Source of the DNA: Oxynema aestuarii AP17
GTDB lineage: Bacteria; Cyanobacteriota; Cyanobacteriia; Cyanobacteriales; Laspinemataceae
Reading direction: 5' to 3'
Length of the DNA stretch: 64,000 nucleotides
Assembly (NCBI RefSeq): GCF_012295525.1
Contig: NZ_CP051167.1
Span: 3,038,001-3,102,000 of the forward strand
Under the pieces are notes generated by a model that was not told the origin of the DNA, ran no database searches, and worked only from the letters and a program-made list of their open reading frames with translations. A program made the position numbers and the translations under genes. Below are positions 24,172 to 32,190 of this stretch, piece by piece. How positions within the stretch are numbered: position 1 is the first letter of the stretch; every line of letters begins with the position of its first letter.

Positions 24172-25881
24172 ATGAGCTATCGAATAGATCGGGGCGCTTA
24201 CGCCCAAACTTACGGCCCGACCGTGGGCGATCGCGTGCGGTTGGCAGATACGGAACTATTTGTGGAAGTCGAACGGGATTGGACGACCTACGGCGACGAG
24301 GTGAAGTTCGGCGGCGGTAAAGTCATTCGCGACGGGATGGGACAGTCCCCCATTTCCAACGCCGCCGGGGCCGTCGATTTAGTGATTACCAATGCTTTAA
24401 TCCTCGATTGGTGGGGGGTGGTCAAGGCCGATGTCGGCATTAAAGACGGCAAAATTTACAAGATCGGCAAGGCGGGAAACCCTTACATTCAGGACGATGT
24501 AGACATCATCATCGGGCCGGGAACCGAGGCGATCGCCGGAGAAGGACGCATTCTCACCGCAGGCGGGATCGACGCTCACATTCACTTTATCTGTCCGCAA
24601 CAAATTGAAGTGGCGATCGCCTCCGGCATCACTACAATGTTAGGTGGCGGTACGGGTCCGGCCACGGGAACGAACGCCACGACCTGCACCCCGGGGCCGT
24701 GGAATATTTATCGCATGTTACAAGCGGCGGAGGCTTTCCCGGTCAATCTCGGCTTTCTCGGTAAAGGCAACAGCAGCCAAAGTGAAGGCTTGGTCGAGCA
24801 AGTTCTCGCCGGGGCGATCGGCTTGAAACTGCACGAGGACTGGGGAACAACTCCGGCGGCGATCGATACTTGTTTGGGCGTGGCGGACGACTACGACGTG
24901 CAAGTAGCGATCCATACCGATACCCTCAACGAGGCCGGGTTTGTCGAACAAACGATCGCCGCATTTAAAAATCGCACGATTCATACCTATCACACCGAAG
25001 GCGCGGGCGGCGGTCACGCCCCGGATATTATTAAAGTTTGCGGCCAAAGTAACGTTTTACCCTCTTCTACCAATCCGACGCGCCCCTATACCGTCAATAC
25101 GTTGGAAGAACACCTCGATATGTTGATGGTGTGCCACCACCTCGATCGCGCCATTCCCGAAGATGTCGCCTTCGCCGAATCGCGCATTCGCCGCGAAACG
25201 ATCGCCGCCGAGGATATCCTGCACGATTTGGGCGCCTTCAGCATCATTTCCTCGGACTCCCAGGCAATGGGACGCGTGGGAGAAACGATTATCCGTACCT
25301 GGCAGAGTGCCCATAAAATGAAAGTCCAACGCGGTCGCCTCTCCGGCGAAACTGGGGAAAACGATAACTTGCGCGCCCGTCGCTACGTGGCAAAATATAC
25401 AATAAACCCGGCAATTACTCACGGAATTTCTCATATAGTGGGCTCGATCGAAGTCGGTAAACTCGCCGACTTGTGTTTGTGGGATCCCGCCTTTTTCGGC
25501 GTCAAACCGGAATTGGTTCTCAAAAGTGGGGCGATCGCCTACGCCCAAATGGGGGACGCCAACGCCAGTATCCCCACCCCGCAACCGATTCACATGCAAC
25601 CGATGTTCGCCAACTTCGGCGCTTCTCGGACTGCGACCTCGGTGACTTTCATGTCCCAGGCGGCGATTGACAACGAAATTCCGGCGCAATTGGGTTTGCA
25701 GAAACAGGCGATCGCCGTCCGCGAAACCCGCAACATCGGCAAAAAAGATATGAAATTAAACGACGCCCTCCCGGCGATCGAAGTCGATCCGGAAACCTAC
25801 GAAGTGCGTGCCGATGGTGAATTACTGACCTGCGAACCTGCAGAAGTTTTACCCTTGGCCCAGCGCTATTTCTTGTTCTAA
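24172..25881 (+). CDS. ureC: Urease alpha subunit (catalytic)
   Basis: 569-residue catalytic subunit of urease, which hydrolyses urea to ammonia and carbamate at a di-nickel centre. Nickel ligands and active-site motifs are seen: [14 protein letters not shown] (two His), [15 protein letters not shown] (the carbamylated Lys), [25 protein letters not shown], the flap region [22 protein letters not shown] and [12 protein letters not shown]. Full length. Ribosome site GTGAGG 9 bases before ATG. Unusually, it stands alone, over 21 kb from ureA/ureB and the accessory genes, but converges with the guanidine hydrolase operon, whose product urea is its substrate. A shared bidirectional terminator lies between them. 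Confidence 0.98.
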
Positions 25882-26002: not shown

Positions 26003-26785
26003 TCAAACAGCTAATGGCATTTCGTCGCATTCTTCCTCGCCGCGCAACAGTCCCATAATGCGATATTTGTACTGTTGAAATGCTGGCGATCGTCGCATCG
26101 CTTGGGTACGTTCTCCCGGTAATTCGATTTTGATTTGTTCGCGGACGCGACCGGGACGGGCGCTTAAAACATAGATCCGTTCGGATAAAAAGACTGCTTC
26201 TTCTACGTCGTGGGTGATCGTTAAAATTGTGGTTCCGGTTTGTTCCCAAATTTGTAAGAGAAACTGCTGCATTATTTCTTTAGTTTGTACGTCTAACGCC
26301 CCAAAAGGTTCGTCCATTAACAGGATTTTTGGACGGGATGCTAACGCCCGGGCGATCGCCACCCGTTGTTTCATCCCGCCGGATAATTCATTCGGTAAAG
26401 CATGGGCAAATTGGGATAAACCAACTATTTCTAAATAATAGGCGACGCGATCGCGCCGTTCCGATGCCGAGATTCCTTGTAATTTTAATCCGAAACCGAC
26501 ATTTTTAGCGACCGTCATCCAAGGATAAAGGGTATAATTTTGGAAGACCATCCCGCGATCGCTCCCCGGTCCGCGCACGGGTTCGCGATCGACTAAAATT
26601 TCCCCCGAACTCGGCATTTCCAACCCGGCAATTAAACGCAATAACGTCGATTTTCCCGAACCAGAAGCGCCGACCGCACAGACAAACTCTCCCTCTTCAA
26701 TATGAAGGTTAATATTGTCTAAAGCGAGTAAAGAACCGCGCCGCGTTGGAAAACGCTTGTAAAGATTATTGACTTCTAAATGCAT
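26003..26785 (-). CDS. ABC transporter ATP-binding protein, NitT/TauT type (predicted guanidine uptake)
   Basis: 260 residues. Walker A GASGSGKST, Q-loop FQNYTLYPW, signature LSGGMKQRVAIARAL, Walker B ILLMDEPFGALD and the switch His in TITHDVEEAVFL. The subfamily is nitrate/sulfonate/taurine-type importers. An upstream in-frame ATG (26854) would overlap the permease gene; the start at 26785 is chosen because GAGAGG precedes it by 10 bases and the protein then begins with the usual MHLEVNNLYKRF. Last gene of the minus-strand unit SBP-permease-ATPase. Linkage to guanidine hydrolase and HypAB matches the Synechocystis sll1077-sll1082 arrangement, so guanidine is the likely substrate; this is inferred from context. 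Confidence 0.93.
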   Translation of the reverse strand: MHLEVNNLYKRFPTRRGSLLALDNINLHIEEGEFVCAVGASGSGKSTLLRLIAGLEMPSSGEILVDREPVRGPGSDRGMVFQNYTLYPWMTVAKNVGFGLKLQGISASERRDRVAYYLEIVGLSQFAHALPNELSGGMKQRVAIARALASRPKILLMDEPFGALDVQTKEIMQQFLLQIWEQTGTTILTITHDVEEAVFLSERIYVLSARPGRVREQIKIELPGERTQAMRRSPAFQQYKYRIMGLLRGEEECDEMPLAV

Positions 26786-26832
26786 GAGTAAATTTCCTCT
26801 CAATCGATCGAAATTAGCAATCAAACACCAAA

Positions 26833-27711
26833 TTAATTGGTCGCCCAACGACAAGATAATCTCAAAGCTAAACGGAATAATAAATCGATGGTCAATCCAA
26901 TCAGTCCGATAACAATTAAACCCGCAAAAATTTCATCGGTTCTGAGAAAGCGTTGAGCGACGCTAATCCGCCGTCCCAAACCCTCCGTCGCCGCCACCAA
27001 CTCGGCGACAATTACTAAATTCCAAGACGCCGCCATATTGACCCGCGCCGCATCAATAATACTCGGGGTAATGTAGGGGAAAATGACTTGCCAAAACACT
27101 TGTTTTCGTTCACCACCCAGGGTGTAAGAGGTTTCGATTAACTCTTTCGGAACGAATTTCACCGCATCCATAACCATTAAGGTGTTGAAGAATAAAGTAC
27201 CGATAAAAATTAATAAAATTTTTGGCGCTTCTCCCAAGCCAAAATATAAAATAAGTAAGGGAATAAACGCTGGGGCTGGCATATAACGAACGATCCCGAT
27301 AATCGGTTCGAGTAACGCCCGTAAACTGGCAAAAGTTCCCATTAAAGTTCCGAGGGGAATGGAAACGATCGCCGCTAAACTAAAGCCACTTAAAACTCGA
27401 AATAAACTCGCACCAATATCTTTAGGTAAATCCCCACTGACCCACAATTTGTAAATTGCTTGTAAAACTTGTCCGGGACTGGGTAAAAACAAAGGTTTGA
27501 CTAAACCCGAAGTCGAGATCGTCCACCACAAAATAACGGGAATGGCGATCGACAAAACCATTAATTTCCACCGCAACTGTTCGGGGATATTCTCGCCAAT
27601 TCTCCAAAAGACGCTCGGTTGGATAATTTTGGGAGAATTCGGCGGTTGTTCTTCGATAGGTTCCGCGCTTTTATTCATCACAATTAAATTGAACTTTTTT
27701 GAACTGGTCAT
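26833..27711 (-). CDS. ABC transporter permease, NitT/TauT type (predicted guanidine uptake)
   Basis: 292 residues from ATG 27711 (281 if ATG 27678; no ribosome site decides). Hydrophilic N-terminus of about 45 residues, then about six membrane helices with the binding-protein-dependent permease fold: FLPSPGQVLQAIYKLW, ASLFRVLSGFSLAAIVSIPLG and the EAA loop ELIETSYTLGGERKQVFWQVIFP. Partner of the ATPase 47 bases downstream and of the lipoprotein gene 92 bases upstream; a palindromic hairpin lies in that latter gap. Confidence 0.92.
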   Translation of the reverse strand: MTSSKKFNLIVMNKSAEPIEEQPPNSPKIIQPSVFWRIGENIPEQLRWKLMVLSIAIPVILWWTISTSGLVKPLFLPSPGQVLQAIYKLWVSGDLPKDIGASLFRVLSGFSLAAIVSIPLGTLMGTFASLRALLEPIIGIVRYMPAPAFIPLLILYFGLGEAPKILLIFIGTLFFNTLMVMDAVKFVPKELIETSYTLGGERKQVFWQVIFPYITPSIIDAARVNMAASWNLVIVAELVAATEGLGRRISVAQRFLRTDEIFAGLIVIGLIGLTIDLLFRLALRLSCRWATN

Positions 27712-27803: not shown

Positions 27804-28835
27804 TTAAACTCCCGAGCCTAGGAGTTTATTTTTCGATTCTGCATAAGCTTTGACGAAGCGATCGTCAAAAATCTTACTCAAATCGGGCTGATTTTGTACG
27901 AAACCCGTTTCCATCAAAAAATCGGAGATTTGTTCGGCAGCGTAGGGTAAAGCGGTCATGTTTTCCCCCGGTTGAAATGCTTTTAAATTGTCTTCAATGG
28001 TGAAAATTTTTGTCCCCGCTTCGTATTGTTTATATTCTTCAACGCTGACCCCCGCTCGTTCCGCCATGATTTGATAAGATCGATCGGGATTGGTCTTAAT
28101 AAATTCCAACGTATCAAACCAAGTGTTCACTAATGCTTGAACCGCTTCGGGCCGTTCGTTAATTAAACGGCGTGTAACGACTAAATGATCGGGAATGGCA
28201 CCCGGAAAGTCTTTAGAACTGAATAATTCTTTACTTCCCGGACGTTCTAAGGCTTTAGTCGTGAAGGGCGCAAAGACACCGACCGCATCGACTTGTCCGG
28301 CAACAAAAGCGGCGGCGGCGGCTCCCGTTTCTAAGGGTTGAAAGTCGATATCTTCAGCGCTCAATCCTGCTTCTTTCAAGCCTAAAAGCAGAAGAAAATG
28401 ATCGACGGTTCCTTCTTCAGCAGCTACTTTTTTCCCTTTCAAATCGGCGACGGTATTGATGCCTTCTCGAACGATGATTTTGTCATTTCCGGTGGAGTTA
28501 TCGTTGACTAAAACAATCACTTGGTCGGATCCGGCAGCAACGGAACTAATGGTGTCGTTCAGGGTTTGGGTGTTGGCGTCGAGTTGTCCGGAAACGAGGG
28601 CATTGATTGAGTCGAGATAGCCGTCAAACCAGGTTAAATTAACGTCAATTTGATGGGCTGAAAATAATTGTTCGCTTTCGGCAATTCGCCAGGGAAACCA
28701 GCCGGGCCAGGCAGTATATCCCATGCGAATGGGGGTTGCACTTTGTCCACTCGGGTTGGATGGCGTACAACTGACGGTTACGATTAAACTCAGACAGAAG
28801 ACGGCCAGATATGAAAATAAGGTGCGACGTTTCAC
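27804..28835 (-). CDS. NitT/TauT-type substrate-binding lipoprotein (predicted guanidine binder)
   Basis: 343 residues, starting at GTG 28835. Lipoprotein signal: MKRRTLFSYL, a hydrophobic segment, then VTVSC with Cys23 as the lipid-attachment site. The mature domain is of the nitrate/taurine-binding type (IRMGYTAWPGWFPWRIAESE, TLNDTISSVAAGSDQ, DLKGKKVAAEEGTVDHFLLL, GQVDAVGVFAPFT). A ribosome site (GAGGAAA) lies inside a block of six 11-base-spaced CGATC repeats that runs into the start codon. A GTA-N8-TAC site lies about 165 bases upstream, so the transporter may have its own NtcA-dependent promoter apart from gdmH-hypA-hypB. Substrate guanidine is inferred from neighbours. Confidence 0.93.
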   Translation of the reverse strand: MKRRTLFSYLAVFCLSLIVTVSCTPSNPSGQSATPIRMGYTAWPGWFPWRIAESEQLFSAHQIDVNLTWFDGYLDSINALVSGQLDANTQTLNDTISSVAAGSDQVIVLVNDNSTGNDKIIVREGINTVADLKGKKVAAEEGTVDHFLLLLGLKEAGLSAEDIDFQPLETGAAAAAFVAGQVDAVGVFAPFTTKALERPGSKELFSSKDFPGAIPDHLVVTRRLINERPEAVQALVNTWFDTLEFIKTNPDRSYQIMAERAGVSVEEYKQYEAGTKIFTIEDNLKAFQPGENMTALPYAAEQISDFLMETGFVQNQPDLSKIFDDRFVKAYAESKNKLLGSGV

Positions 28836-29153: not shown

Positions 29154-29873
29154 TCATGCAGAAACTGAATCAAAAAATTTATGTTTTACGCGAAATTGTG
29201 GCAATCCTAGCAGTTGCAGGCGAATCCAATTGAACCAAACATCTAAACCTTCCCCGGTTTTTGCGGATACGGGAATAATCGTGACATTTGGGTTCATTTG
29301 ACGTACATTTGCGGCGATGCGATCGACATCGACCTCTAAATACGGTGCCAAATCTGTTTTGGTAATTAACAGACAATCCGCTTCTTGAAACATGATCGGA
29401 TATTTAAGCGGTTTATCTTCCCCTTCGGTTACACTTAATAATGCAACTTTTGCGTGTTCGCCGATTTCAAACTCTGCCGGACAAACCAAGTTACCGACAT
29501 TTTCAACTAAGACTAAATCGAATTCGGTCGGGTCGTAGTCCGCTACCAATTGATGCAGCCCTCCGGCGACCATTTTCGAGTCTAAATGACACGATCGCCC
29601 GGTGTTAATTGCAATTACGGGAACGCCGTATTGTTCTAGCCGTTCCGCATCTAAGCGGGTGGTCATATCCCCTTCAATTACTACAATTTTTAATTCGTCA
29701 GTGAGGGCGGCTAATGTTTTTTCTAATAACGCCGTTTTCCCCGCACCGGGACTGCTCATAACATTGAGACAAATCATTCCCCATTCGTCAAAATGTTCGC
29801 GATTGTGATCTGCACCATCTTGGTTGGCGTGCAGCAAATTTATGCCGAGGGCGGCGTCAAAGGTTTGATGCAT
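29154..29873 (-). CDS. hypB: HypB-type nickel-insertion GTPase (guanidine hydrolase maturation)
   Basis: 239-residue GTPase that drives nickel insertion into a metalloenzyme. Walker [15 protein letters not shown], the metal-binding [11 protein letters not shown] (Cys-His), [19 protein letters not shown] and the NKxD-like TKTD are seen. There is no His-rich N-terminus, so it lacks nickel storage. It overlaps hypA by 17 bases. There is no hydrogenase in the window; the operon position right after hypA and the guanidine hydrolase gene matches the Synechocystis case, where this HypA/HypB pair serves guanidine hydrolase (GdmH). Confidence 0.95.
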
Positions 29874-30255
29874 AACTAACAGTTTCCTGGGGAGTTTCCT
29901 GAGTTAAAAAGCTATATTCTATTCGGTCGATTTTGAGTTCCCGTCCCGAACGAATATCCTCCATTGGCGAACCGCATTCGGGACAGCTATATTTCAACCC
30001 AATTTCCGGTCGATATTCGCGCTCGCAAGGATGACAAAAAGCAATTAAGGGAATTTCTTCGATCTGCAATTTTACCCCGTCTAAAAAGGTGCCGCGCGTT
30101 TGCACTTCAAAGGCAAATTGCAAACCGACTGGTTCGACACAAGTAAAATGACCGATAACTAAGTGCAAAGCTTCTATTTTGGGTTTTTGGGGTTGCGCTT
30201 CCCACCAGTCTTTTACGGTTAAAATTAAGGCTTTGGTCAGATCGGTTTCATGCAC
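29857..30255 (-). CDS. hypA: HypA-type nickel chaperone (guanidine hydrolase maturation)
   Basis: 132 residues. Begins MHET, giving the N-terminal His2/Glu3 nickel-binding pair of HypA, and has the zinc site CHPC...CPEC at about residues 74-95. It delivers nickel together with HypB. It starts 3 bases after the guanidine hydrolase stop and overlaps hypB by 17 bases, so the three are translationally linked. The context (no hydrogenase) points to GdmH as client. Confidence 0.95.
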
Positions 30256-30258
30256 GAC

Positions 30259-31443
30259 TCACCTCCAGTCCGAGAGAAATTCCGGTTGGGCTTTGGGATG
30301 GATATAAGCAGGTTTTTCTTGGCGAGGTAATTGTCCGGATAAAACTAAATGTGCCATCGTGTCGCAAATCACCCGAGTGGCCATCAACGAGGTCATGTCA
30401 CTAATATCGTAAGGTGGCGAAACTTCGACGACTTCCAAGCCACAAACGGGCGCTTTTTGTACAATTTTTCCGAGTAAATAAAGGGCTTCTCGGGGGAGTA
30501 AACCGCCGGGTTCGGGCCAGCCCGTCCCGGGGACGAATCCAGCATCGATACAGTCGATATCGAAGCTGATATAAACGCAATCGGTTCCGTCTAATGCCCG
30601 TTCTAAAGCGAAGTCTACCGTCGAATCCAAACCGATTTCAGTAATATCTGTAACGGTGAGAATATTGGTTTGTCTTTCGCGACAAACTTTAACCCCTTGA
30701 CGGGGAACTTGCCAGCCGCCAATCCCGAGTTGAACTAAGTTTTTAGCGGGGGCATTTTTAATATTATTGGCGTGAAACCACGGGCAGGTGTGCATCCGTT
30801 CGTCGAGGTCGGTTTCTTGGGTGTCGACGTGGCGATCGAAGTGAATAATTCCGACTTTGCGATCGCCTAAATGACGGCAAACTCCGCGCACGGTGGGATA
30901 GCCGATCGAGTGATCTCCCCCTAAAACAATGGGGAAGGCACCGGAACTAAAAATATGGGCAATTCCTTTAGAAATTTGATCGAAAGATTTCTCGTTATTG
31001 CCAGGAATCGTGAAGATATCGCCGAGATCGCACAGGGTAATTTGTTCGCGTAAATCGACGCCTAATTCAAAGTTGTAGGGGGTATAAAGAGCGGAAATTC
31101 TGCGAATTCCTTGTGGTCCGAATCGGGTTCCGGGACGATAGGTGGTTCCGGAATCGTGGGGAACGCCAACGATCGCGATATCGTAGTTGCCAACTTGACG
31201 AACGTCTTCGAGATATGGAGCTTTTAAAAAGGTGTTAATTCCGGCATAGTGGGGCAGTTCGCCACGGGAAAACGTGGGGATCGTGCGATCGCGGATACTC
31301 GCTGCTCCTTCCAGTCCGAATTCTAACCCTTGGGAAACTTCTTGTTGCCATCCAGTCAGGGGCAGGTGCTGTTCTTTTTCTAAAGCCCGACTGGCTTCGC
31401 TCGACTCATTTGGATGACGAAAGGTAGGCTGTTCTTCTGTCAT
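30259..31443 (-). CDS. gdmH: Ni-dependent guanidine hydrolase (ureohydrolase family)
   Basis: 394-residue ureohydrolase, longer than ordinary agmatinases because of an N-terminal extension of about 75 residues. Metal ligands: GGDHS, HFDRHVDTQ and SFDIDCIDAGFVPG; also PEPGGLLPREAL and the C-terminal GLEVVEVSPPYD. In Synechocystis the close relative Sll1077 was shown to be a nickel enzyme that splits guanidine into urea and ammonium and needs HypA/HypB-like proteins. The same gene order (hydrolase, hypA, hypB, then the NitT/TauT transporter) occurs here, and a guanidine-I riboswitch precedes the gene, which makes the substrate call strong. First gene of the minus-strand operon; leader of about 300 bases. 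Confidence 0.94.
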   Translation of the reverse strand: MTEEQPTFRHPNESSEASRALEKEQHLPLTGWQQEVSQGLEFGLEGAASIRDRTIPTFSRGELPHYAGINTFLKAPYLEDVRQVGNYDIAIVGVPHDSGTTYRPGTRFGPQGIRRISALYTPYNFELGVDLREQITLCDLGDIFTIPGNNEKSFDQISKGIAHIFSSGAFPIVLGGDHSIGYPTVRGVCRHLGDRKVGIIHFDRHVDTQETDLDERMHTCPWFHANNIKNAPAKNLVQLGIGGWQVPRQGVKVCRERQTNILTVTDITEIGLDSTVDFALERALDGTDCVYISFDIDCIDAGFVPGTGWPEPGGLLPREALYLLGKIVQKAPVCGLEVVEVSPPYDISDMTSLMATRVICDTMAHLVLSGQLPRQEKPAYIHPKAQPEFLSDWR

Positions 31444-31521
31444 GACTGCACCTGAAATAACCTGCTTTTATGCGGTGGGTTTATTCGGTCATTGCCCGCT
31501 CTCCAAATTTCCAAAAAACCG

Positions 31522-31580
31522 AAAAAATAAGAACCCGGGAGAGCGATAACGACCTTTTGCCGTTATTGTCCTCCCGGGCT
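31522..31580 (-). terminator. Riboswitch expression-platform terminator
   Basis: On the minus strand, GCCCGGGAG of the aptamer's 3' part can pair with CTCTCCCGGG further on, enclosing an inner stem AATAACG/CGTTAT, and is followed by TTCTTATTTTTT. The 5' arm is also part of the conserved aptamer block, so ligand-bound aptamer and terminator are mutually exclusive: guanidine should allow read-through. Confidence 0.85.
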
Positions 31581-31700
31581 TTTATCCCGCCGTGTAACCA
31601 ACCCGTTTCTCCGCCTATGGAAACCGTATGATTGAAGGTTGGTTTGCTTCTCTCGGACCAGCCATTCAAATCTATTGACTTAAATCGGAACCCTAGAAGC
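31570..31700 (-). ncRNA. Guanidine-I riboswitch (ykkC motif) aptamer
   Basis: On the minus strand the three conserved blocks of the guanidine-I (ykkC) aptamer appear in order: CTAGGGTTCCG (31696-31686), GGTCCGAGAG (31659-31650) and ACACGGCGGGATAAAAGCCC within 31595-31570. It lies about 130-250 bases before the gdmH start and is followed at once by a terminator hairpin that shares its last block. It senses free guanidinium and controls gdmH and downstream genes. Confidence 0.93.
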
Positions 31701-31792
31701 TCGTTTGATTGTCGAGACTTAAAGTTCGATTGAATTGAGAACCGAGCTTTAAATTTCTCTATTACAAATAGCAATAGATTTCCTAAGGGAGT

Positions 31793-31806
31793 GTATCGAA
31801 TGCTAC
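31793..31806 (-). promoter_or_regulatory. NtcA-type promoter site upstream of the guanidine operon
   Basis: Perfect GTA-N8-TAC (31793-31806). On the minus strand 22 bases separate TAC from TATTTG (31770-31765), a candidate -10; TGTAAT lies four bases further. The spacing fits NtcA-activated promoters, and transcription would start about 60 bases before the riboswitch. Confidence 0.6.
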
Positions 31807-32022
31807 CATTTGCAGGTTAATTTTTGAGAGCCGTTAAGAAATCAAAGGGGCAATTCGGCTAATTGCCAATACATCAGCCGCGTTTGGACTGAAAAATGCT
31901 TGTAACACTTCGCGACTTCGATCGCCCGTCGGAAAGCATTCGACGATCCCTCTTTTCTTAAAGTGAGATCGTGTTAGCAACAGGTCTGGAACGTCTAGCG
32001 GAACTCGATCTGAGGATATCTT

Positions 32023-32190
32023 ATGAGCAAAAAGTCTACAAATGCTATAATTTTAGTCAAAAAACATCTCAAAACTGTTACTTACAAAGGATTAAACGGC
32101 TGCGATCGAAAGTTCGATCCCGAAAATGATAAAATAGGGATAGGACATTCATTTTTCTCAAGTTTCTCAAGATTAACTGAGAAAAGGTAA
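32023..32190 (+). CDS. Possible small Lys-rich ORF, unknown
   Basis: 55-residue frame from ATG 32023 with GAGG seven bases upstream. The product starts MSKKSTNAIILVKKHLK and is basic. It overlaps the end of the convergent MuiA-like gene by 18 bases. No family recognised and no conservation evidence available, so it may be chance. The preceding stretch 31810-32022 holds no recognisable gene. Confidence 0.25.
   Translation: MSKKSTNAIILVKKHLKTVTYKGLNGCDRKFDPENDKIGIGHSFFSSFSRLTEKR

Follow-up and report, generated by a model that had tools for sequence, protein, structure and literature searches.

A conserved NtcA box upstream of Guanidine-I riboswitches suggests two-input control of guanidine-use operons in cyanobacteria

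A guanidine-assimilation operon of Oxynema aestuarii AP17 is likely to be governed by two inputs in series, with NtcA starting the leader and guanidine preventing its termination. We also find it fairly likely, with slightly more reserve, that the arrangement is conserved through much of the group, NtcA and the Guanidine-I riboswitch together forming a two-input AND gate on cyanobacterial guanidine-use operons. Both the riboswitch class with its ON mechanism and the operon have been described before; what is added here is the conserved NtcA box upstream. Coordinates are positions in the window, the 64,000-nt stretch that was analysed (NZ_CP051167.1, 3,038,001-3,102,000), and the host's order is Cyanobacteriales (GTDB). 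Published work is cited from the excerpts that were available.

Guanidine-I aptamer, terminator and downstream genes

The leader contains the only match to the Guanidine-I family in the whole 6.36 Mb genome (31707-31569; Rfam covariance model RF00442), covering model positions 1-107 of 107 at E 3.7e-13. The preliminary description of this DNA had proposed a covariance-model search, which the element passes with 82.4 bits (gathering score 63), and the three conserved ykkC blocks it had read on the minus strand lie there in order. Its extent of 31522-31700 was essentially right, aptamer and terminator together being slightly longer (31707-31521). The leader elements are:

31569-31707, minus strand: Guanidine-I riboswitch aptamer (RF00442)
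31696-31686, minus strand: conserved block 1, CTAGGGTTCCG
31661-31650, minus strand: conserved block 2, CTGGTCCGAGAG
31595-31571, minus strand: conserved block 3 (last block), ACACGGCGGGATAAAAGCCCGGGAG
31533-31579, minus strand: predicted terminator hairpin whose 5' arm is the last aptamer block (-28.9 kcal/mol; bounds counted from the dot-bracket structure)
31521-31533, minus strand: T tract TTCTTATTTTTTC, read from the sequence, whose first T also closes the hairpin

Since related ykkC subtypes exist (PMC6031431, excerpt), one could imagine that the aptamer is of a different type (ppGpp, PRPP or the like) and fails to recognise guanidine. We regard this as extremely improbable: RF00442 is matched over its full length, no other Rfam riboswitch family reaches E 1 within 31200-32100, and the gene downstream encodes a relative of guanidine hydrolase. 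On the first two grounds the other subtypes were rejected.

Beyond the aptamer, the last block has an alternative partner, GCCCGGGAGG (31579-31570) pairing with TCTCCCGGGT (31542-31533) through 10 contiguous pairs, 7 of them G-C, and the 10 nt that follow TCTCCCGGGT hold 8 T, in agreement with the earlier reading of a later arm and a T run. When the growing transcript was folded (MFE, ligand-free thermodynamics), aptamer helix P3 was kept at 170 nt and lost to the terminator at 178 nt; these mutually exclusive predicted folds support the on/off mechanism that had been proposed ahead of gdmH. A simple terminator scan did not list the 31579-31533 hairpin, presumably because mismatches interrupt its stem, and its sole match, at another site (31867-31849), was no more than shuffled sequence gives (1 found, mean 1.0 in shuffles).

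We then compared two sets of loci. The host-order set comprises all 106 Guanidine-I matches found in the host's order, spread over 98 of 194 genomes, 6 of them scoring under the RF00442 family cut-off. The other-order set comprises 65 loci among the matches listed (27 loci and 38 picked for extra genera; more exist). A 3' arm that pairs with the last block and leads into a T-rich tail was present at 90 of 106 host-order loci (19.9 expected from shuffled downstream sequence) and at 52 of 65 other-order loci among the matches listed (15.7 expected), and a chance terminator was rejected on these counts. Helices of 10-14 pairs occur at 73 of the 90 host-order terminator loci and, among the other-order matches listed, at 47 of 52, and the upper part of the hairpin exceeds the average stability of its shuffled versions at 90/90 and 51/52 (matches listed) of these loci, respectively. 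Because these counts exceed the shuffles and the upper hairpins are stable, the predicted terminator switch is a conserved feature. The rule failed at 16/106 host-order loci and at 13/65 other-order loci among the matches listed; the misses include five host-order loci with no last block by pattern (L062, L063, L095, L102, L103) and some others that look terminator-like by eye (L008, L011, L039).

Could the hairpin work chiefly on translation or RNA stability rather than on termination? Some relatives lack the terminator, and all 6 fetched loci of family f34 fail the terminator rule, with a start codon about 30 nt past the aptamer (distance by eye). In the window, however, the T tract directly follows the hairpin and stops 78 nt short of the gdmH start codon (31443), and published work describes the class as an ON switch at the level of transcription (PMC12186494, excerpt), so we consider such a role very improbable here and take termination as the working reading.

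The genes behind the switch are:

30259-31443, minus strand: gdmH, putative guanidine hydrolase (arginase family), 394 aa (Pfam Arginase 262.5 bits)
29857-30255, minus strand: hypA, nickel metallochaperone (TIGR00100 115.4 bits, cut-off 88.1)
29154-29873, minus strand: hypB, nickel insertion GTPase (TIGR00073 307.2 bits, cut-off 121.2)
27804-28835, minus strand: ABC importer substrate-binding protein (TIGR01728 SsuA family 248.9 bits, cut-off 163.5)
26833-27711, minus strand: ABC importer permease (Pfam BPD_transp_1 90.4 bits)
26003-26854, minus strand: ABC importer ATPase (Pfam ABC_tran 119.6 bits)

Residues 8-389 of the gdmH product match PDB chain 7esr/7oi1 ('Probable agmatinase 2'), which we take to be Sll1077/GdmH, at 777 bits. 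By homology the first downstream gene thus encodes a putative GdmH, as the preliminary description had claimed, and hypA, hypB and the ABC importer follow it. NCBIfam labels the product an agmatinase (175.7 bits, cut-off 174.3), the older annotation discussed in the accessible part of PMC8390497. The gene context suggests guanidine as the cargo of the importer, and the six genes from gdmH to the importer would share one transcript.

Within the host's family, near-full-length GdmH is present in 2 of 14 genomes (G000 and G113, 89% identical), and a third genome has a match of just 35% over ~110 residues. The aptamer is found in the same two GdmH genomes and is missing from the ten other family members listed. 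In this family both enzyme and switch have a patchy distribution and co-occur.

Next to the operon and convergent with it lies ureC (urease alpha, 24172-25881, plus strand), so that an enzyme for the urea product adjoins genes that would make urea. Antisense to ureC, at 24323-24613 on the minus strand, we found an Rfam 5_ureB_sRNA match (102.4 bits, gathering score 40), which may simply mirror conserved urease coding sequence.

The NtcA box in the window and across cyanobacteria

Canonical NtcA promoters carry GTAN8TAC ~41.5 nt before the start together with a TAN3T -10 box (PMC3898017, excerpt). Upstream of the window aptamer the corresponding elements are:

31793-31806, minus strand: NtcA box GTAGCATTCGATAC (GTAN8TAC), a perfect match to the consensus in the PMC3898017 excerpt
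31765-31770, minus strand: candidate -10 box TATTTG, 22 nt past the NtcA box
31758, minus strand: predicted transcription start, calculated as box centre + 41.5 nt

The weak point of the NtcA reading for the window copy is the -10 candidate, which stands at the right distance but is not TAN3T (its last base is G), and a sigma-70 promoter scan found no promoter. The preliminary description had been silent on the NtcA box. The genome encodes NtcA itself (393.2 bits, cut-off 244.95).

In the 200 nt upstream of the aptamer, 82 of the 106 host-order loci have a perfect NtcA box, compared with 4.1 in shuffles. Among the 105 host-order loci with full-length upstream sequence (the set minus L051, whose upstream is just 93 nt), a spacer of 8 gave 82 matches, which cover 49 of the 61 genera and all 25 families; each of the other 11 spacers between 3 and 14 gave 1-11, and the next best of the half-sites of the same composition, again at spacer 8, gave 16. 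Upstream of TPP riboswitches in the host's order, the box occurred at 1 of the 29 control loci with full upstream sequence (30 loci in all). Together the shuffles, the spacer and half-site controls and the TPP control led us to reject a chance origin of the conserved box. Matches with one mismatch do not discriminate (102/106 in the host's order, 63 expected from shuffles) and were dropped as uninformative.

The same box was found at 29 of 65 other-order loci among the matches listed, with 0-4 for other spacers, and there it covers 27 of the 52 genera and 11 of the 20 families in the matches listed. Promoter geometry is kept in both sets: TA lies exactly 22 nt past the box at 57/82 host-order loci and at 17/29 other-order loci among the matches listed, and TAN3T lies 21-23 nt past it at 45/82 (background 5.2) and, among the other-order matches listed, 13/29 (background 1.6). 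A start placed at the box centre + 41.5 nt falls upstream of the aptamer at 80 of 82 host-order loci and at 28 of 29 other-order loci among the matches listed.

These data bear on a riboswitch-only explanation, in which the promoter is independent of NtcA and the window box is a relic or a product of chance. The non-canonical TATTTG would fit it, as would the lack of a perfect box at 24/106 host-order loci and at 36/65 other-order loci among the matches listed. However, a chance box in any given 200 nt is improbable (~1.5%), because only 476 copies of GTAN8TAC exist in the 6.36 Mb genome, rarer than the reversed control (744), and the box is kept at the same place in most host-order genera with TA at a fixed distance. 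We therefore judge control by the riboswitch alone to be unlikely and retain NtcA as the probable activator.

Grouped by first downstream gene, host-order loci carry the box at 66/83 for GdmH, 8/10 for ABC-first loci, 3/3 for sodium:solute-symporter-like genes and 5/10 for UAAP-like genes (the last two named by eye from translations). The UAAP-like genes stand behind Guanidine-I aptamers instead of gdmH (L021, L033, L034, L043, L051, L055, L059, L064, L070, L089). We also started from the enzyme, using the best 80 of 380 GdmH loci, a set that overlaps the genomes of the earlier sets. A loose pattern found the aptamer at 60 of these best 80, with the box at 49 of those 60, and the box lay within 400 nt of the start at 7 of the 20 loci without a patterned aptamer. 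Absence of the aptamer at these 20 is not proven by this count, because the loose pattern misses some.

Two further arrangements were seen among the loci. At the six fetched f34 loci (L108, L114, L115, L118, L165, L171) the aptamer sits ~30 nt before the start codon by eye, and neither a terminator match nor, in the 200 nt upstream, an NtcA box was found; f34 is perhaps a translational version without NtcA input. At least six genomes (G237, G301, G348, G393, G432, G276) carry a divergent pair of Guanidine-I aptamers separated by 235-291 nt, and at L112, L113 and L120 the 200 nt upstream contain a single palindromic NtcA box. Such a box between divergent aptamers might serve both directions.

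A proposed two-input mechanism

Established here are the aptamer score, the mutually exclusive predicted folds, the gene identities by homology, and the box with its conservation. From these we infer that the operon is probably under an AND gate, in which NtcA drives the leader and read-through depends on guanidine. Under nitrogen shortage, active NtcA would bind GTAN8TAC at 31806-31793 and activate transcription from near 31758, and the nascent leader RNA would fold into the Guanidine-I aptamer. Without guanidine, TCTCCCGGGT would capture the last block and RNA polymerase would stop in the T tract (31533-31521). With guanidine bound, the aptamer would keep the last block in helix P3, formation of the terminator would be prevented, and transcription would continue into gdmH-hypA-hypB and the genes of the ABC importer.

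We assign guanidine the role of ON signal in the window because the published behaviour of the class, in the PMC12186494 excerpt, is ON. Expression would then need both signals, so that the cell would use guanidine only if it is present during nitrogen shortage. If the gate holds, nitrogen shortage without guanidine should yield plentiful short leader RNA. The conserved box offers a cheap and sharp prediction: in much of the phylum, one operon should be controlled by a global nitrogen regulator and, in series with it, by an RNA that senses a metabolite. The box is relevant to the ranking of guanidine and ammonium by cyanobacteria, and also to the element as an expression tool, since output from the natural promoter would depend on nitrogen status.

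Comparison with published systems

An earlier report of NtcA control is quite possible, and we claim no priority; a PNAS paper of 2025 by Itzenhauser may already contain one. The accessible parts of PMC12930504, PMC12282138, PMC10094980, PMC8400943, PMC13226834 and PMC13192157 contain no statement on NtcA control of the guanidine operon in an incomplete text search.

The window riboswitch is ordinary, one more example of a well-studied class, because the same riboswitch-terminator design is published for Synechocystis sll1077 (PMC8390497, PMC12186494, excerpts). In Synechocystis sp. PCC 6803, sll1077-sll1082 stand behind a guanidine riboswitch (PMC8390497, PMC10094980, PMC12186494, in the parts available) in the same six-gene order as in the window (PMC8390497 and PMC10094980, in part), and the operon genes rise in guanidine-producing strains (PMC8390497, in part). 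In the window ureC adjoins the operon. Excess ammonium represses sll1077-1082 in Synechocystis, an effect that the excerpt of PMC10094980 reports as dependent on the protease Slr1821 and does not tie to NtcA. By analogy, this repression would fit the NtcA reading.

With the RF00442 class the window shares the full-length model match, the conserved blocks, a terminator overlapping the last block and a guanidine gene downstream. The sole difference within the aptamer is a P2-type stem with 31 bases where the consensus has 4, and outside it the window has the NtcA box upstream. With the canonical class II NtcA-activated promoter the window has in common GTAN8TAC and TA at the -10 distance, whereas its -10 candidate departs from TAN3T and a ligand-controlled terminator is predicted to follow.
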